Part shown: in pieces, positions 1,365 through 11,555 of the stretch
How positions within the stretch are numbered: the first letter of the stretch is position 1
Layout: each line of letters begins with the position of its first letter
Source of the DNA: Microcoleus sp. FACHB-672
GTDB lineage: Bacteria > Cyanobacteriota > Cyanobacteriia > Cyanobacteriales > Oscillatoriaceae
Assembly: GCF_014695725.1 (NCBI RefSeq)
Contig: NZ_JACJOU010000032.1
Span: 62,001-126,000, forward strand
Direction: 5' to 3'
DNA: 64,000 nt
The notes under the pieces: model-generated
Databases searched by the model: none
What the model was told of the DNA's origin: nothing
What the model saw: the letters and a program-made list of their open reading frames with translations, nothing else
Translations under genes and position numbers: made by a program

Positions 1365-4300
1365 ATGACTACTCAGACTCCCACCGCACCAGCCTTCGTC
1401 CTGCCAGACCTCGTGGAAATCCAGCGCTCTAGCTTCCGCTGGTTTCTGGAAGAGGGACTTATTGAAGAACTCAATAGCTTCTCGCCGATCACAGACTACA
1501 CCGGCAAGCTAGAACTGCATTTCCTGGGCAAAGACTACAAACTCAAGCGCCCTAAGTACGACGTTGACGAAGCCAAACGCAGGGACAGCACCTACGCCGT
1601 TCAAATGTATGTGCCCACCCGCCTCATCAACAAAGAAACCGGCGAAATCAAAGAACAAGAAGTCTTCATCGGCGACCTGCCCCTGATGACAGACCGAGGC
1701 ACTTTCATCATCAACGGTGCCGAACGAGTTATCGTTAACCAGATCGTCCGCTCTCCCGGAGTCTACTACAAATCTGACACCGACAAGAACGGACGTCGTA
1801 CCTATAACGCCAGCCTCATCCCCAACCGAGGCGCATGGCTGAAATTTGAAACCGACAAAAACGACCTCGTTTGGGTGCGGATTGACAAAACCCGCAAACT
1901 CAGCGCCCAAGTGCTGCTCAAAGCTTTGGGACTGACTGACAACGAAATTTACGACGCCCTGCGCCACCCGGAATACTTCCAAAAAACCATTGAAAAAGAA
2001 GGGCAGTTCAGCGAAGAAGAAGCCTTGATGGAGCTTTACCGCAAACTGCGTCCGGGTGAACCCCCCACCGTTTCAGGGGGCCAGCAGCTGCTTGACTCTC
2101 GCTTCTTTGACCCCAAACGCTACGATCTTGGTCGCGTGGGCCGGTACAAGCTCAACAAAAAGCTGCGGCTCAACGTGCCAGATACCATGCGGGTACTGAC
2201 CCCCCAAGACATTTTGGCGGCGGTTGACTACCTGATTAACTTGGAATTCGACATCGGCCAGACAGACGATATCGACCACTTGGGCAACCGGCGCGTCCGC
2301 AGTGTGGGTGAGCTACTGCAAAACCAGGTGCGGGTTGGGTTAAACCGGCTTGAACGCATTATCCGGGAACGGATGACCGTATCAGACGCTGACGCCCTCA
2401 CCCCAGCATCCCTCGTCAACCCCAAACCCTTAGTCGCGGCGATCAAAGAATTCTTCGGATCGTCCCAGTTGTCCCAGTTCATGGATCAAACCAATCCTCT
2501 GGCAGAACTGACCCACAAGCGCCGGCTATCGGCCCTTGGCCCAGGCGGTCTGACGCGGGAACGGGCCGGCTTTGCGGTGCGAGACATTCACCCCTCCCAC
2601 TACGGGCGCATCTGCCCCATCGAAACGCCTGAAGGCCCAAATGCCGGTTTAATCGGCTCCTTGGCCACTCACGCACGGGTGAACGCCTACGGGTTTATCG
2701 CCACGCCCTTCTACCCAGTCGAAAATGGCCGGGTGTTGCGCGATCGGCCTCCCCAGTTCATGACGGCAGATGAGGAAGATGACCTCAGAGTGGCACCGGG
2801 GGATATTACGGTCGATGAAAATGGCTACATCCAGGGTGAAACGGTGCCGGTGCGCTACAGGCAAGACTTTACCACCACCACACCCGACCAAGTAGACTAC
2901 GTCGCCGTGTCGCCGGTGCAGATTATCTCGGTGGCTACATCTCTGATTCCTTTCCTGGAACATGACGATGCTAACCGCGCCCTCATGGGGTCTAATATGC
3001 AACGGCAAGCGGTGCCCTTGCTGCAACCAGAGCGGCCCCTAGTGGGAACCGGCCTGGAAGCGCAAGCAGCGCGGGACTCTGGGATGGTGATCGTGTCGCG
3101 CACGGATGGGGTGGTGACCTATGTGGATGCAGAGCGCATCCGGGTGAAACCAACGCCAGCGAACAACGGGCACAGCAATCAGTCAGACGGGGCGACAAGC
3201 CGGCCCTCCGCTGAACCGAAAGAACTTGAATACCAGCTTCAGAAGTACCAGCGTTCCAACCAAGATACCTGTCTCAATCAGCGCCCGCTGGTGTTTGAAG
3301 GCGATGACGTCGTTGCCGGCCAAGTGCTAGCAGATGGTTCGGCAACGGAAGGCGGAGAAATCGCCCTGGGCCAAAATATCCTAGTGGCTTATATGCCCTG
3401 GGAAGGCTACAACTATGAAGACGCGATCCTGATTAGCGAACGCCTCGTCATCGACGATGTCTACACCTCAATTCACATTGAAAAATATGAAATTGAGGCG
3501 CGGCAAACTAAACTCGGGCCAGAGGAAATCACGCGGGAAATTCCCAACGTTGGGGAAGATGCACTGCGCCAGCTAGATGAGGGCGGCATCATCCGGATCG
3601 GGGCGTGGGTCGAGTCGGGCGATATTCTGGTCGGTAAAGTGACGCCGAAGGGTGAATCTGACCAACCGCCTGAAGAAAAGCTGCTGCGGGCGATTTTCGG
3701 GGAAAAAGCTCGCGACGTGCGCGACAATTCCCTGCGAGTGCCCAATGGAGAAAAAGGCCGCGTCGTTGATGTACGGGTGTTCACTCGCGAACAAGGCGAT
3801 GAACTGCCTCCCGGCGCAAATATGGTTGTGCGCGTCTATGTGGCCCAAAAACGGAAGATTCAAGTGGGCGACAAGATGGCAGGCCGGCACGGCAATAAGG
3901 GGATTATTTCCCGAATTCTGCCGGCTGAGGATATGCCGTACTTGCCCGATGGCAAGCCGGTTGATATCGTCCTCAACCCCTTGGGTGTGCCGTCACGGAT
4001 GAACGTGGGCCAGATTTTCGAGTGCCTGCTGGGTTGGGCCGGCGAAAATTTGAACGCGCGGTTTAAAGTCGTGCCGTTTGATGAAATGCACGGGTCGGAA
4101 AAATCGCGAGAAACCGTGCATTACAAGTTGCAGCAAGCTCGTGAGAAAACCGGCAAAGATTGGTTATTTAACCCGGATAATGCCGGTAAGATTACCGTCA
4201 TGGACGGACGCACCGGCGAACCCTTTGACAGGCCGGTCACAGTGGGCAAAGCCTATATGCTGAAGCTGGTTCACTTAGTGGATGATAAGATCCACGCCCG

Positions 4301-4721
4301 TTCCACCGGCCCTTACTCTCTAGTGACGCAACAGCCTCTTGGTGGCAAGGCGCAGCAAGGCGGCCAGCGTTTCGGAGAAATGGAAGTGTGGGCGCTGGAG
4401 GCGTTTGGCGCAGCCTACACCTTGCAAGAATTGCTGACGGTGAAGTCAGACGATATGCAAGGTCGTAACGAAGCGCTCAATGCGATCGTCAAAGGCAAGG
4501 CTATCCCCCGTCCGGGAACGCCAGAATCTTTCAAAGTGCTGATGCGCGAGTTGCAATCCCTGTGCTTGGATATTGCAGTGCACAAGGTTGAAACCAAGGA
4601 GGACGGCACCTCACGTGATGTGGAGGTTGATCTGATGGCGGATGTATCCACCCGCCGCGCCCCTTCAAGACCGACTTACGAGTCAGTTTCGCGGGAAGCG
4701 TTTGACGAAGCCGACGAATAG
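1365..4721 (+). CDS. rpoB: DNA-directed RNA polymerase subunit beta
   Basis: An 1118-residue RNA polymerase beta subunit, normal length for cyanobacteria. Recognisable blocks include the N-terminal protrusion/lobe ([17 protein letters not shown]), the rifampicin region ([20 protein letters not shown]), [20 protein letters not shown], the nucleotide-binding lysine regions ([10 protein letters not shown]) and the C-terminal clamp ([23 protein letters not shown]). It pairs with RpoC1/RpoC2 to form the active centre. A linker at about residues 595-625 ([19 protein letters not shown]) is low complexity. The ATG follows AGGAGA. It is first in rpoB-rpoC1-rpoC2; a 767 bp spacer with an HNH gene relic separates it from rpoC1, unusually long for this operon. 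Confidence 0.99.
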
Positions 4722-4735
4722 TTGTTAGCAGCCAT

Positions 4736-4776
4736 CTGTCAGCAGTCCGTTGTTTTTGACGGCTGACTGCTGACAG
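4736..4776 (+). terminator. 12-bp inverted repeat just after rpoB
   Basis: Perfect 12-bp arms CTGTCAGCAGTC (4736-4747) and GACTGCTGACAG (4765-4776) with a 17-nt loop, 15 bp after the rpoB stop. There is no following T-run, so it is more likely a transcript-stabilising or processing hairpin, or a copy of the CAGTC-rich repeats common in cyanobacterial spacers, than a strong intrinsic terminator. Confidence 0.5.
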
Positions 4777-4885
4777 AAGAAGCGCTAACCAATGAGACAA
4801 TGAATTATCTTCGCCGGTGCGATTAACACCGCGAGATTCAAACCAACGTAATCTTATTTAAACCTCACGTTGATCATGTCTCATT

Positions 4886-5482
4886 TTGTCACATCCCCCT
4901 GGACTTGCAGGTTTAAGGACGGCAGCCGGTTGTATAGAATGGCAAGGCAATAAACTGGGAAATGGTTGCGGGCGCAAATGGATTAATGGCAAATCGGTAT
5001 TCGTTCACCGATTACTTCTCGAATCCAAAATACCAGGATTCTTAGAATCGGGTAGTTTAGCTTGCCACACTTGTGATAACCCAAGCTGTATTAACCCAGA
5101 CCATTTAGTACCGGGAATTGCCGCTGAAAATAGCTTGCAAATGATAGAGCAAAACCGCAAAACCTCTCGTAGCCAAACCTTTGCCGGGAGCAGCAAATTG
5201 AGTATTGACCAACTTTGGGAAATTCAGCTCAAATATTCCAACAAGTTCAAGCTATGCGGAGTCGTCGAATGAATGGCGACCGCATTCCCGATATGGCTGA
5301 TGATTTTGGAGTGTCTCGAAGTGTCATTGACGACCTTAAAAACGGAGTGACCTATAAAGAAGTTTAACTTTATTAAGAATACCGTCAGCTCCCCTTTTGT
5401 TAGCGACCAGCTAAGAAAGCTGATAACTGAAGCGCGACTGATGATACCTGGTAAAACTTGGAAGCACATTGAAGGGAGATAA
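4886..5482 (+). pseudogene. Frameshifted HNH endonuclease gene between rpoB and rpoC1
   Basis: Frame 1 (TTG at 4886 to TGA at 5272, 128 residues) carries the HNH zinc-loop signature of free-standing homing-type endonucleases: GCIEWQGN, the HR of FVHRLLLES, and CHTCDNPSCINPDHL followed by an asparagine. The usual C-terminal DNA-binding part is missing from this frame but present downstream: from about 5230 to the TAA at 5365-5367 the shifted frame reads an HTH-like stretch (RIPDMADDFGVSRSVIDDL then NGVTYKEV), and from about 5370 to 5482 the original frame resumes and ends in PGKTWKHIEGR, the GKTWxxI/V ending typical of these proteins. This implies two roughly compensating indels near 5225 and 5365. 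The N-terminus also looks short and uses TTG. The end abuts rpoC1 by 6 bp and contains its ribosome binding site. Most likely a decaying selfish nuclease gene; sequencing errors are the alternative. Confidence 0.75.
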
Positions 5483-5488
5483 AGATAA

Positions 5489-7357
5489 ATGGCAAAGCTT
5501 GAACAAAGATTTGACTACGTCAAAATTGGTTTAGCGTCCCCAGAAAGAATTCGGCAGTGGGGCGAAAGAACCTTACCTAATGGTCAAGTCGTGGGCGAGG
5601 TGACGAAGCCAGAAACCATCAATTACAGGACATTAAAGCCTGAAATGGATGGCTTATTTTGCGAGCGAATTTTCGGGCCGGCAAAAGATTGGGAATGCCA
5701 TTGTGGGAAATACAAACGGGTTCGTCACAGAGGTATTGTATGTGAGAGATGTGGCGTAGAAGTCACCGAATCGAGAGTGCGCCGGCACCGCATGGGCTAT
5801 ATCAAATTAGCCGCGCCGGTCGCCCACGTTTGGTATCTCAAAGGCATCCCCAGCTACATGGCGATCCTTTTGGATATGCCACTACGGGATGTCGAACAAA
5901 TTGTCTACTTTAACGCCTACGTCGTTCTCTCCCCCGGCAACGCCGACAACCTGCAATACAAACAGCTACTGACAGAAGATCAGTGGATGGAAATTGAGGA
6001 TCAGCTTTATAGCGAAGATTCTCAACTCGCCAACATCGAAGTCGGCATTGGCGCGGAAGCACTGCAACGCCTGCTGCAAGACATTGAGCTGGAAAAAGAA
6101 GCTGAACAGCTGCGCGAAGAAATTGCCAACGCCAAAGGACAAAAACGCGCCAAACTGATCAAGCGCCTGCGCGTGATTGACAATTTCATCGCCACCGGCT
6201 CCCAACCCGATTGGATGGTACTGTCCGTCATTCCAGTAATTCCGCCGGATCTGCGCCCGATGGTGCAGCTCGATGGTGGACGTTTTGCCACCTCTGACCT
6301 TAACGACCTCTACCGGCGCGTCATCAACCGCAACAACCGACTGGCTCGACTGCAAGAAATCCTTGCCCCAGAAATCATCATCCGTAACGAAAAGCGGATG
6401 CTGCAAGAAGCCGTTGACGCCCTCATCGACAATGGACGCCGGGGACGAACAGTCGTAGGAGCCAACAACCGGCCCCTTAAATCCCTTTCTGACATCATTG
6501 AAGGTAAACAAGGCCGATTCCGCCAAAACCTGTTAGGTAAGCGAGTTGACTACTCCGGACGTTCCGTTATCGTCGTCGGGCCAAAACTCAAAATCCACCA
6601 GTGCGGCTTACCCCGTGAAATGGCCATCGAGCTATTCCAACCCTTCGTGATTCATCGGCTGATTCGTCAGGGACTGGTCAACAACATCAAAGCCGCCAAA
6701 AAACTCATCCAGCGTAACGATCCCAGCGTATGGGACGTGCTAGAAGAAGTCATAGAAGGGCACCCAGTCATGCTAAACCGGGCACCCACCTTGCACCGGC
6801 TAGGGATTCAAGCCTTTGAACCGATCTTGGTGGAAGGGCGCGCCATCCAGCTGCATCCCCTCGTTTGTCCTGCCTTCAACGCCGACTTTGACGGTGACCA
6901 AATGGCCGTTCACGTCCCCTTATCCTTAGAATCTCAGGCAGAAGCGCGGTTACTGATGCTGGCATCCAACAATATCATGTCACCGGCAACCGGACGGCCC
7001 ATCGTGACGCCCAGCCAAGACATGGTGTTAGGCTGCTACTACCTAACCGCCGAAAGCCACGATCAGCAAAGAGGAGCCGGTCGCTACTTTGCGAACTTAG
7101 ACGACGCGATCATCGCCTACGAACAAAAACAAATCGACCTCCACGCCTATATTTGGGTGCGCTTTGATGGAACCGTAGAAACAGATGAGCCGGATAACAG
7201 CCCCAAAGTCGAAAAATCCCCAGACGGTATCGTAACGAAACTCTATAAATACCGTCGAACTCGGGAAGACGCAACCGGCAACATCGTTAGCCAATACATC
7301 AAAACAACCCCAGGACGAATCATCTTAAACAAGACGATTCAAGAAGCGCTCAAATAG
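5489..7357 (+). CDS. rpoC1: DNA-directed RNA polymerase subunit gamma (beta' N-terminal half)
   Basis: A 622-residue RpoC1, the N-terminal half of beta' that is a separate gene only in cyanobacteria and plastids. It has the zinc-binding cysteines ([20 protein letters not shown], about residues 71-90), the clamp and lid regions, [20 protein letters not shown], and the catalytic magnesium loop [16 protein letters not shown]. The ATG follows GAAGGGAGA 10 nt upstream, a ribosome binding site that overlaps the end of the HNH relic. It is cotranscribed with rpoC2, 136 bp downstream. Confidence 0.99.
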
Positions 7358-7367
7358 TCATTTGTCA

Positions 7368-7438
7368 TTTGTCACTTATCAATTGTTAATTGTCAGCCGG
7401 TCAAAACCCAAAACAAAAGACAAAAGATAAGTGACAAA
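7368..7438 (+). repeat. Inverted repeat in the rpoC1-rpoC2 spacer
   Basis: Perfect 13-bp arms, TTTGTCACTTATC (7368-7380) and GATAAGTGACAAA (7426-7438), flank a 45 bp loop. The left arm sits in a short TCATTTG heptamer repeat (7358-7372), a common class in cyanobacterial spacers. With no T-run it is not a classical terminator; it could fold in the mRNA between the two subunit genes. A GTG inside the right arm is in frame with rpoC2 but is unlikely to be the start. Confidence 0.6.
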
Positions 7439-7493
7439 GCATCAACAACCAAGGGCAAAAAACGACCGGACAAAGGACACAGGACAAAAAAAC

Positions 7494-10400
7494 ATGGCAG
7501 ATCAAAAGTCAATGGTTTTTCGCAATCGAGTTGTGGACAAAGGTGTCTTAAAAAAACTCATTGCCTGGGCCTTCACCAACTACGGGACAGCGCGGACAGC
7601 CCAAGTCGCCGACCTTCTTAAAGATTTGGGATTCCGCTACGCTACAAAAGCCGGCGTCTCCATCTCGGTAGACGACCTCAAAATTCCCCCCGGGAAACGT
7701 CAGCTGCTAGCAAAAGCAGAAGACGAAATTCGCGACACAGAAGCCCGCTACACGCGTGGAGAAATCACCGAAGTCGAGCGCTTCCAAAAAGTTATCGACA
7801 CCTGGAACGGCACCAGCGAAGAACTCAAAGACGAAGTCGTACGTCACTTCAAAGCCGCCGATCCCCTGAACAGCGTCTACATGATGGCCTTTAGTGGAGC
7901 GCGGGGGAATATTTCCCAAGTCCGGCAGCTGGTGGGAATGCGGGGATTGATGGCAGATCCTCAAGGGGAAATTATCGACTTGCCCATCAAAACCAACTTC
8001 CGCGAAGGCTTAACTGTAACCGAATATATTATTTCCTCTTACGGGGCACGTAAGGGCTTAGTTGATACCGCACTGAGAACAGCCGACTCGGGCTATCTCA
8101 CCCGCCGGCTCGTAGACGTATCCCAAGACGTGATCGTGCGGGAAATTGACTGCGGCACTAACCGAGGAATTCCAGTACGGGCAATGACCGATGGGGATCG
8201 GGTGTTGATCCCGCTGAAAAACCGCTTGCTGGGTCGGGTTTTAGCATTAGATGCGCCCCACCCCAAAACCGGCAAAATTATTGTCACCCGTAACCAACCG
8301 ATATCGGAAGAACTCGCCCAAGAAATTGGCGATGCCAAAGTAGAAGAAGTGTTCGTACGCTCTCCCCTCACCTGCGAAGCCACCCGCAGTTGCTGCCAGC
8401 ATTGCTACGGCTGGAGCCTTGCCCATGCTCACTTAGTAGACATGGGTGAAGCCGTGGGGATCATCGCCGCCCAGTCCATCGGCGAACCGGGGACTCAGCT
8501 AACGATGCGAACCTTCCACACTGGGGGCGTCTTCACCGGCGAAATCGCCCGTCAAGTTCGCGCACCCTTTGAAGGCACGATTCGCTATATTGGCCAACTA
8601 CGAACCCGGCCCTTCCGTACCCGCCACGGGGAAGAAGCCCTGGTTGTAGAAAGTGCAAACGCCGAATTAGCCGTAGAGCGAGATGGACGGCGAGAAGTTT
8701 TTCCCATCACCCAAGGTTCCACCCTGTTGGTGCAAGATGGCAGTCACGTAAAAGCCGACGCATTTATCGCCGAAGTGCCGATTGCCGGTCGTACCGCCCG
8801 CAAAACCACGGAAAAAGCAACCAAAGACGTGGCCTCCGACTTGGCCGGCGAAGCGCTGTTTGCCGACTTGGTGCCTGAAGAAAAAACAGACCGGCAGGGC
8901 AACACCACCCGCATCGCCCAGCGCGGCGGCTTAATCTGGATTCTGGCCGGCGAAGTTTACAACTTGCCACCAGGGGCCGAACCCATCGTCAAAAACGGCG
9001 ACCGGATTCAGCCTGGAAGCGTTTTGGCCGAAACCAAACTGATTACTGAACATGGCGGCGTTGTGCGCTTGGGTGGGGAAGACACTTCTGGCGAACACCC
9101 TCGCGAAGTGGAAATTATCACCGCTTCTGTCCTGCTTGACCGGGCCACTGTTCGCGAGGAAAGCTACCAGGGCCGGGAACACTATGTGATTGAAACCACC
9201 AACAACCAGCAGTTTTCCCTGAAAGCCACCCCAGGCACAAAGGTGCAAAATAATCAAGTGGTCGCTGAGTTGATGGACGGTCGCTATCACACCCAAACCG
9301 GCGGGATCATCAAATATTCCGGTGTGGAAGTGGCCAAGCGGGGTAAAGCCAAGCAAGGTTACGAAGTCGTTAAAGGCGGCACCCTGTTGTGGATTCCCGA
9401 AGAATGTCATGAAGTTAACAAAGACATTTCTTTGCTGCTGGTTGAAGATGGCCAGTATGTAGAAGCCGGCACAGAAGTCGTCAAAGACATCTTCTGCCAA
9501 AACAACGGGGTCGTGGAAGTTACCCAGAAAAACGACATCCTGCGGGAAATTGTCGTCAAGCCCGGTGAACTCCACATGGTAGATGATCCGGAAGAAGTGC
9601 TCAGTGCCGATGCCACGTTGGCGAATCCAGGCCAAGAAGTTATAAAAGGTCTGACGGTGCCGGAGTTACGCTACATCGAGTATGTGGAAACCCCTGAAGG
9701 CCCCGCCCTCCTGCTACGTCCGGTAACTGAGTTTCACGTGCCCGACGAGCCGGCTGTTCCTTCCCAAGAATCGCGCAAAGACCAAGACGGTTCCGCAATT
9801 GAGTTGCGTGCCGTGCAACGCCTGCCCTATAAAGATGGGGAGCGGGTTAAATCCGTTGAAGGTTTGGAGTTGCTGCGAACCCAGCTTGTTCTGGAAATTG
9901 GCAAAGACGCCCCTCAATTGGCAGCCGATATTGAGCTGGTGCCAGATGCGAATGACCCGTCTGTGATGCGGCTGCAATTGGTGATTTTAGAATCGCTGAT
10001 CATTCGCCGGGATATGGCGGCAGACGCCCTGCAAGGCAGCACCCACACTCGCCTATTGGTGGAAGATGGCCAACGTATTGCCCCCGGCGCCGTCGTAGCC
10101 CGAACTGAAATTCAGTGTAAAGAAGCTGGTTTGGTTCGCGGGATTCGCGAGGGTGCGGAAGCAATTCGCCGGATTCTGGTGGTGCGCGATGCTGATTTGC
10201 TCACCCTAGAAGTCCCAGAACTCTCACCAACTGTTAAAGTCGGCACTTTACTGGTTGCCGGTAAGGATGAGATCGCGCCCGGAGTTGGACTTGAAGAGTC
10301 TGGCCAAGTGATCTCTATCATCAAAGATCAATCTTCACCGGCAGATGGAGATGCCCAATCCAAGCTGCAAAAACCGGCTAGCAAAGTCGTGATGCGGATC

Positions 10401-11555
10401 GCCCGCCCCTATCGCGTTTCTTCAGGTGCAGTGCTGCACGTTGAGGATGGCAGTTTGGTGCAGCGGGGTGACTTGTTGGTGCTGCTGGTGTTTGAGCGCA
10501 CGAAGACGGGAGATATTATCCAAGGTTTGCCCCGGATTGAGGAACTGCTGGAAGCCCGGAAGCCTAAGGAAGCTTGTGTTCTGTCCAAACGACCGGGGAC
10601 GGCTCAGGTTGAGTATGGTGACGATGACTCGGTAGAAGTCAAGGTCATTGAGGCTGATGGGGTGATTACAGAGTATGTGATGGGTCCGGGACAGAATGTG
10701 ATGGTGTCTGATGGCCAGGAAGTCAAAGCCGGCGAGCCACTTTCAGATGGGCCTTCAAATCCCCATGAAATTCTGGAGGTTTTCTTTAATATCAACCGGG
10801 AAACGATGGGCGCGTATGATGCGGCGTTGAGTAGTTTCCAAGCCTGCCAGACATTTTTGGTGAATGAGGTGCAGTCCGTGTATCAATCTCAAGGAATTGA
10901 TATTTCTGACAAGCACATTGAGGTGATTGTCCGTCAGATGACTTCTAAGGTTCGGATGGATGACGGCGGCGATACAACGATGCTGCCGGGTGAACTGGTG
11001 GAGTTGCGTCAGGTTGAGCAGGTGAATGAGGCAATGTCCATCACTGGCGGTGCACCGGCTCAGTATACGCCGGTGTTGCTGGGGATTACGAAGGCATCGC
11101 TGAATACGGATAGCTTTATCTCGGCGGCTTCTTTCCAAGAAACCACACGGGTGCTTACAGAAGCGGCGATTGAAGGTAAGTCTGACTGGTTGCGTGGACT
11201 CAAGGAAAACGTGATCATCGGACGTTTGATTCCTGCCGGCACGGGCTTCAATGCTTATGAGGACTTGATGAATAGTCAAGCCGACATGGATATGGGTTAT
11301 GACTCTGCCGGTGTTCTGGATGAGGATGACGATCTTAAGGATGTCGTTCTCGATGACCGCAGCGCCCGTACCTTTAGCAGTAATGGCATCTTTGGCGACC
11401 GGACTGAGGAATTGCCTGAACGTCCCCCTCGTGCTGCTGCCGGCATCGGCTTTGACTTGGCCGGCGCTGACGCGTTCTCTCCCATTCTCGAAGATGATGT
11501 CTTGATTGATGATGAGGAAGAAGAAGAGGACGACGAAGAAGACGACGACTTTTAA
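7494..11555 (+). CDS. rpoC2: DNA-directed RNA polymerase subunit beta' (C-terminal half)
   Basis: RpoC2, about 1353 residues from the ATG at 7494, the C-terminal half of beta'. It begins [17 protein letters not shown], reads into the bridge-helix/trigger-loop region ([19 protein letters not shown], then [21 protein letters not shown]), and then carries the very large trigger-loop insertion of cyanobacteria, made of repeated beta-barrel/sandwich-hybrid motifs, before the C-terminal [20 protein letters not shown] block. The tail is extremely acidic ([13 protein letters not shown]). The frame stays open to a GTG at 7431, but those 21 residues are low complexity and lie in an inverted repeat, so the ATG is preferred. 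Last gene of the operon, followed by two terminator-like hairpins. Confidence 0.98.

Follow-up and report, generated by a model that had tools for sequence, protein, structure and literature searches.

A remnant HNH endonuclease gene in the rpoB-rpoC1 spacer of Microcoleus sp. FACHB-672 and its same-site counterparts in related cyanobacteria

The spacer between rpoB and rpoC1 of Microcoleus sp. FACHB-672 harbours the remains of what probably was a free-standing HNH endonuclease gene of the homing type, now dead. We assign this reading, which is derived from sequence comparison and in which cutting and copying are inferred, a probability of about 0.7. Taken alone, the copy present in the analysed stretch of 64,000 nucleotides (referred to as the window) is an ordinary pseudogene. 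The interest lies in finding, at one spacer of an essential operon, copies that are intact, decaying or missing, rather than in the window copy by itself.

Results and Discussion

The rpoB-rpoC1 spacer of the window

In the window, the stop codon of rpoB ends at position 4721 and rpoC1 starts at 5489, leaving a spacer of 767 bp with HNH-coding sequence (Table 1), just as the original prediction had it. The spacer matches HNH endonuclease families of the PHROG collection with a best E value of 3e-21, and the relic stays below the Pfam cut-offs (22.9 bits for zf-His_Me_endon at a cut-off of 27 and 15.9 bits for HNH_3 at a cut-off of 24.8). Within 21 loci of relatives whose spacers are free of HNH matches (L010 to L031 except L027), 19 spacers measure 66 to 313 bp and the other two 595 and 668 bp, all of these lengths being approximate as the rpoC1 start was placed via alignment. 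Since HNH families are matched and since most HNH-free loci possess shorter spacers, the HNH-bearing spacer has to be considered both real and unusual. It is plausible that the relic is cotranscribed with the rpo operon.

For comparison we used two other species of the same genus (G001 and G002; the window genome is G000), which share 93-94% DNA identity with the window over 1.1 kb. Between the HNH stop codon and rpoC1, the three congeners differ at 0, 3 and 3 of 121 positions, compared with 32-34 of 341 positions in the relic of the first HNH domain. This segment, far better conserved than the relic, may carry a promoter, a processing site or a translation signal for rpoC1. The inverted repeat just behind rpoB does not belong to a repeat family, a copy search of the genome revealing one exact copy of its right half and one copy with a single mismatch.

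Table 1. Features of the rpoB-rpoC1 region in window coordinates
Feature	Position	Strand	Basis and remarks
rpoB (1118 aa), upstream flank	1365..4721	+	open frame; C-terminus aligned with rpoB of relatives
inverted repeat just 3' of rpoB, CTGTCAGCAGTC...GACTGCTGACAG	4736..4776		sequence; also present in two congeners
leader hairpin 1 of HNH unit	4807..4837	+	fold; one extra base compared with two congeners makes it weaker in the window
leader hairpin 2 (CAACGT...ACGTTG)	4844..4872	+	fold; encloses the usual position of the ribosome-binding site
original HNH start codon and 25 open codons, then stop	4876..4950	+	alignment with G001/G002; translation
relic of HNH domain 1 (VHRL at 5003, CHTCDNPSCINPDHL at 5063-5107) and beginning of HTH1	4892..5242	+	profile matches, sequence
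internal-deletion junction, HTH1 fused out of frame to last HTH	5228..5252		common to G000, G001 and G002
relic of last HTH with natural stop at 5365-5367	5236..5367	+	ORF 5215-5367 compared with intact C-termini
121-bp spacer from HNH stop to rpoC1	5368..5488		contains the GKTWKHI frame, which is non-homologous, as well as the rpoC1 ribosome-binding site (~5471-5477)
rpoC1 (622 aa), downstream flank	5489..7357	+	open frame; start aligned to relatives
rpoC2, next operon gene	7431..11555	+	open frame; matched as rpoC2 in relatives

Copies at the same site in related genomes

A search with the intact protein of G008 against 388 genomes of the order, using a threshold of E 1e-15 or better, returned matches in 38 of them. 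In the comparison of this spacer across relatives that was proposed with the original prediction, related genomes indeed bear an HNH gene at the same site: it lies between rpoB and rpoC1 in 32 genomes, of which 23 belong to the genus g5 (family f2), five to the window's own family f1 (G000-G003 and G006) and four to family f9 (G015, G043, G065 and G192). A wider search of 388 genomes drawn from the class, for which the division into members and non-members of the order is not shown, gave four matches, all within the window's order.

The proposed search for uninterrupted homologues at the site was likewise successful, with intact copies in g5 and in G006. The g5 protein comprises 363 amino acids with two HNH domains; the gene occurs in 23 of the 29 sampled g5 genomes and is fully open in 17. 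Three further g5 copies (G095, G111, G340) owe their interruption to the same short insertion or to stops, two bear internal deletions (G319, in frame, and G287), and one is cut by a contig end (G354). Six g5 genomes are without a match. Spacers were read in selected cases overall, and for these six in three (G345, G372 and G376 being left out): G227 and G310 hold relics and G328 is devoid of HNH sequence. Within f1, the G006 copy is intact (327 aa) and that of G003 is broken by internal stops; spacer reading found no more than a tiny HTH remnant in G004 and nothing recognisable in G005. Within f9, the copy of G192 is open (194 aa, a single HNH), that of G015 contains one stop, and G043 and G065 share an 8-base gap which breaks the frame. 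The spacers of G328 and G005, together with the mere remnants in G227, G310 and G004, lend poor support to the former notion that loss from this position is hard.

Intact copies (L009, L007, L005) exceed the Pfam cut-offs for PF13392 (HNH_3) and PF05551 (zf-His_Me_endon), and phage HNH families match them with E values down to 4e-49. His45, Asn74 and His77 as well as Cys64, Cys67 and Cys72, which we take to form the HNH core, are kept in nearly all aligned copies, the exceptions being the exchange of Asn74 for serine in G366 and the absence of one cysteine from the second domain of G039. Among solved structures no sequence match at E 0.001 or better was obtained; the best one (E 0.031), to an HTH, was not used, and an AlphaFold2 model with a pLDDT of 51.8 was left out of the fold search.

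The gene is placed in the intergenic spacer outside any intron or intein. Rfam reveals no intron at the HNH insertion in L032, L051, L059, L061, L054 or the window, and in particular no RF00029 match is located there, as would be typical of an HNH gene associated with a group II intron. An intron or intein is ruled out by this result and by the fact that the gene possesses start and stop codons of its own, with a complete gene on either side.

Selection on the g5 gene and its conserved leader

The 17 open g5 copies yield a median dN/dS of 0.240 (136 pairs, range 0.136-0.442) compared with 0.034 for rpoC1 of the same loci, and dS amounts to 0.42 for the HNH gene and to 0.39 for rpoC1. In g5 the HNH gene is an old resident under moderate purifying selection. 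Open copies which persist throughout a genus for as long as rpoC1 has diverged are unusual for a purely selfish gene and fit a function for the host equally well.

Leaders of the copies in f2, f9 and f1 can fold into a hairpin of ~10-12 bp with a loop of 6-7 bases, situated ~30-60 bases ahead of the start codon, and into a second one which surrounds the ribosome-binding site and the start. In the window, no clear Shine-Dalgarno sequence remains in hairpin 2. The leader is conserved in 22 of 22 aligned g5 leaders, and a covariance model made from these, applied to 18 sources, finds four f9 leaders (E 9e-8, 2e-4 and twice 3.5e-4) as well as two g5 relics, all in forward orientation. In the same 18 sources it matched no leader of f1; it detected nothing in forward orientation in the HNH-less spacers L065 and L068-L071 and gave no match at E below 0.7 in 49 further loci, which carry different HNH genes and include 30 of the 80 loci from viruses. 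As judged by these matches, the leader is conserved and common to two families (f2 and f9). Its pairs in g5 are standard to 95.9%, a value within the range of shuffled sequences, and the sequences vary too little for a covariation test. Folding z-scores are -4.4 for L032, -6.3 for L041, -6.0 for L061, -3.3 for G001, -1.48 for the window and -0.6 for G006; HNH-less spacers score -4.25, -5.41, -1.48 and -1.21. Folding energy was rejected as proof of a functional leader, as HNH-less spacers fold equally strongly. By analogy with phage genes, the leader may act as RNA in the control of translation.

These data bear on the possibility that the gene has been domesticated, i.e. that it encodes an HNH-HTH host protein of Microcoleus-like cyanobacteria, for instance a regulator of the rpo operon binding its own leader, which the window's genus has lost. 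The wide occurrence of open copies in g5, their dN/dS combined with a dS equal to that of rpoC1, the invariably conserved leader and the conserved 3' spacer in the window's genus are all in line with it. The gene is dispensable, however, given that among the 23 g5 copies six carry an interruption or a deletion or run into a contig end, and that two more genomes hold relics and one none; moreover, related genes reside in unrelated operons and lateral replacement at the site is seen in other families (see below). Altogether, we regard domestication as unlikely.

Lateral history and the flanking rpoC1 sequence

Within g5, the trees of the HNH gene and of rpoC1 conflict with support, as the grouping of G218 with G361 (99/99) stands against that of G218 with G268 and G334 (99/98). 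Across families the discrepancies are more pronounced. G003 and G006, which belong to one genus, share 96% identity in rpoC1 and only 43% in their HNH proteins, while the HNH protein of G003 shares 69% identity with its counterpart in G008, a genome of another family, the rpoC1 of that pair being 89% identical. In G015 and G192, members of different genera, the HNH DNA is 86.5% identical (518/599) compared with 79% for rpoC1 codons 201-450; for G043 and G192 the corresponding values are 97.8% and 89%. As the HNH gene is less constrained than rpoC1 and yet more similar, these copies must share a later common ancestry than their hosts, which indicates lateral movement. The conflicts thus appear to support lateral spread to the same site, with homing as its conceivable cause.

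If a unit spreads by copying, traces of co-conversion may be expected in its flanks. HNH distances in g5 correlate with those of the first 300 bp of rpoC1 with a rho of 0.67 (15 taxa) and with those of other rpoC1 and rpoC2 windows and of rpoB with 0.25-0.40; finer windows (17 taxa) give 0.63, 0.52 and then 0.22-0.41. The first 95 bases of rpoC1 are nearly identical in g5. Codons 2-32 of rpoC1 are, however, conserved without HNH gene too, with a ratio of 0.66 in g5 compared with 0.72, 0.29 and 0.93 in HNH-less genera. The excess identity of f9 in rpoC1 codons 7-100 is reached by 40/262, 5/27 and 10/479 control pairs (45 control loci, one of which, G004, contains a tiny HNH remnant), and for g5 pairs there is no excess whatsoever (-0.008 vs 0.012). 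A sharp co-conversion boundary near rpoC1 codon 32 is hence not upheld by the HNH-less genera and the f9 controls and serves as a lead only.

In G043 (L062, 171-260) and G065 (L063, 811-900) the first ~89 bp of rpoC1 are duplicated upstream of the HNH gene, ahead of the complete rpoC1, with 86 of 93 positions identical. Such a duplication would be expected if, following cleavage near codon 31, the incoming unit had brought its own start of rpoC1 along; in view of the weakening controls we treat it as a lead only.

That the correlation declines from 0.67 to ~0.3 beyond the first 300 bp of rpoC1 is also expected from ordinary recombination, and the flank identity patterns are matched in HNH-less genera and control pairs. 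Both observations, as well as the frequency of relatives in phage contigs, would suit a passive hitch-hiker, namely a phage-derived HNH gene which arrived by chance once per family and spread only through ordinary homologous recombination of the rpo region without homing. Yet at least two HNH versions, the ones of 43% identity mentioned above, occupy the same spacer within one genus, and other genes of the family reside in further rpo spacers, which is more repetition than chance arrival suggests. We therefore consider this explanation improbable.

Genes of the same kind in other places

G374 contains an HNH gene of the same kind between rpoC1 and rpoC2 (307 aa, 39% identical), and G003 another one behind rpoC2 (210 aa). 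In G164, one gene of the family is found in the tal-zwf spacer between the genes for transaldolase and glucose-6-phosphate dehydrogenase. A second family gene of g5 follows an MCP gene and precedes a gene for an Hpt-domain protein, presumably CheA-like, in all 14 fetched loci (L171-L183 and L188; Pfam was checked in one). A profile of the g5 and f1 copies recognises 335 relatives in viral contigs among 368 candidate stretches. In its siting near or between essential genes, the family behaves, by analogy, like the free-standing homing genes of phages, and yet it is located on bacterial chromosomes.

Anatomy and decay of the window copy

The relic of the first HNH domain reaches to ~5214 in the alignment with G001 and G002 and shares 68% identity with the intact protein of G008 along 103 amino acids. 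While the G001 relic is without the conserved Cys67, that of the window retains the HNH core residues. A loss of two bases at ~4890-4899, overlooked in the original prediction, cuts the ATG at 4876 off from the HNH frame. It is unique to the window species when compared with G001 and G002, where the HNH1 frame can be read from the methionine over 132 and 158 aa without a stop, and could still be an error. Among the three congeners, pN/pS of the HNH1 relic amounts to 0.31-0.52, which exceeds the 0.24 of the intact copies and by far the value of rpoC1.

The second HNH domain and HTH2 are gone at the junction; in tblastn, G001 and G002 join residues of the intact protein up to 121 with residues from 321. 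As the same junction is present in all three species, the deletion predates the window species, G001 and G002. The original prediction had correctly noticed that the C-terminal HTH is encoded in another frame, but attributed this to two compensating frameshifts near 5225 and 5365. The former turns out to be the deletion junction (~5230-5250), at which HTH1, HNH2 and HTH2 sequence is missing and which G001 and G002 share, and at the latter position no frameshift exists: the gene ends naturally with the TAA at 5365-5367, as this codon follows ...GVTYKEV where intact proteins end with ...NVTYKGV. These intact C-termini rule out GKTWKHI, formerly taken as the ending of the protein, which lies outside the gene in the spacer behind its stop. 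Consequently, the nuclease does not end 6 bp but 121 bp ahead of rpoC1, and a contribution of the rpoC1 ribosome-binding site, which is located beyond the HNH stop codon, is not supported.

Frame changes within a draft genome might raise the suspicion of a sequencing or assembly artefact in 5200-5400, an explanation of negligible probability, as the junction recurs at the identical position in two independent assemblies of further species at 93-94% identity, which rules out an artefact at the junction itself. Neither a general absence of HNH sequence from this site in relatives nor an artefact at the junction, the outcomes which would have spoken against the original prediction, was thus encountered. 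By these comparisons, the HNH sequence of the window is to be regarded as an evolutionary relic. As for its nature, the former assignment as a homing-type element stands with respect to the relic, given the intact gene at the same site in relatives and the conflicts with the history of rpoC1; homing itself we infer.

A proposed course of events and its relation to known systems

According to the free-standing homing gene reading, the complete unit would consist of a leader able to form two hairpins and of a protein of ~363 amino acids, shorter in some lineages, with the order HNH-HTH-HNH-HTH-HTH. On a chromosome without the gene, the HTH units would recognise a sequence within rpoC1 or rpoB or close to them, the HNH domains would cut or nick the bound target, and repair from the gene-bearing chromosome would copy the unit into the homologous spacer. 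The unit would be read from the rpo transcript, its translation probably being limited by the leader hairpins as in phage homing nucleases. Fixation in a lineage would be followed by decay. In the ancestor of the window's genus, an out-of-frame deletion eliminated HNH2 together with two HTH units, and the window species later lost two bases at the start of the gene.

Most of the known free-standing homing genes come from phages. According to PMC2988022, the mob (HNH) and seg (GIY-YIG) genes of T4-like phages likewise occupy intergenic spacers beside conserved genes and possess hairpins at the ribosome-binding site, which cover it in MobE, SegB and I-TevI and lie just upstream in seg43(25); cut sites of free-standing enzymes are found hundreds to thousands of bases away from the gene. 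Inheritance by copying into relatives without the gene is an analogy which we apply from these phage genes to the cyanobacterial one. In contrast to them, the latter resides in the rpo operon of a bacterial chromosome, combines two HNH with several HTH units and is known here from its sequence. The same review names I-HmuI and I-HmuII of Bacillus phages as HNH nicking enzymes (PMC2988022). These resemble the present protein in their HNH class and in having a separate DNA-binding part, but are encoded within group I introns, while the cyanobacterial insertion gave no Rfam intron match and its protein no solved-structure match at the above threshold.

The 'HEG islands' of phages, as described in PMC10448857, similarly comprise nuclease genes near or bracketing essential genes and repeated DNA-binding units. 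That paper deals with phages, and neither 'RNA polymerase' nor PF13392 occurs in its main text (PMC10448857). It further mentions HNH-AP2 homing nucleases from protists, cyanobacteria and phages, which share with the present family the combination of HNH with a DNA-binding domain and the occurrence in cyanobacteria (PMC10448857). The DNA-binding units observed here are, however, of the HTH type (HTH_38, HTH_7 and others), with no AP2 among the matches listed. In a literature search largely confined to journals without subscription, no title or abstract describing an HNH gene in a cyanobacterial rpo operon was found.

If the free-standing homing gene reading is true, one orthologous spacer displays a gene which is intact throughout a genus, internally deleted, invaded by a short repeat or decayed out of frame, and finally absent, all on a bacterial chromosome and within an operon which cannot be lost. 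The postulated life cycle of homing genes, i.e. invasion, fixation, decay and re-invasion, would then become testable with sequenced strains. A practical question is how the rpo operon tolerates a nuclease insertion of 0.8-1.3 kb between genes for subunits needed in fixed proportions. Going further, one may speculate that filamentous cyanobacteria of one order possess chromosomal, hairpin-led multi-HNH homing genes which are specialised on spacers of housekeeping operons, chiefly rpo, and are subject to phage-like translational control; in Microcoleus, the host might then have recruited the rpo copy to regulate or guard its polymerase operon, with the window's genus representing the stage of loss. 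We hold this extended scenario to be rather doubtful.

Further observations

Three interrupted g5 copies (L037, L039 and L053 from G340, G111 and G095) contain, near HNH residue 94, a short insertion reading ..DPLRGLR-stop, with CTCTTCGAGGGCTGCGCTAACG in its DNA, which breaks the frame at the same place. G039 (L050) has a similar insertion of 21 bases near residue 110, in frame. The insertion with CTCTTCGAGGGCTGCGCTAACG has the appearance of a small repeat dispersed in these cyanobacteria; nothing was found in the literature on such short insertion repeats in them.

The second HNH gene of g5 is preceded by a strong hairpin ahead of its start in six folded loci. The rpoC1-rpoC2 spacers of L051 (G003) and L059 (G006) contain an antisense frame of ~263 amino acids for a different HNH of the CxxC type (PF01844).

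In G006, rpoC1 is split after codon 74 by an insertion of ~880 bp (L059, ~1976-2858), at whose end a domain of a group II intron is matched (RF00029, 58.5 bits, 2786-2862). G065 contains two group II intron matches of 58.7 bits each between rpoB and the duplicated rpoC1 start (L208, 8777-8854 and 9581-9658). Its rpoB (L208, 3910-7959) comprises 1349 codons and that of the window 1118; the former contains a long additional stretch where the window has a short one.
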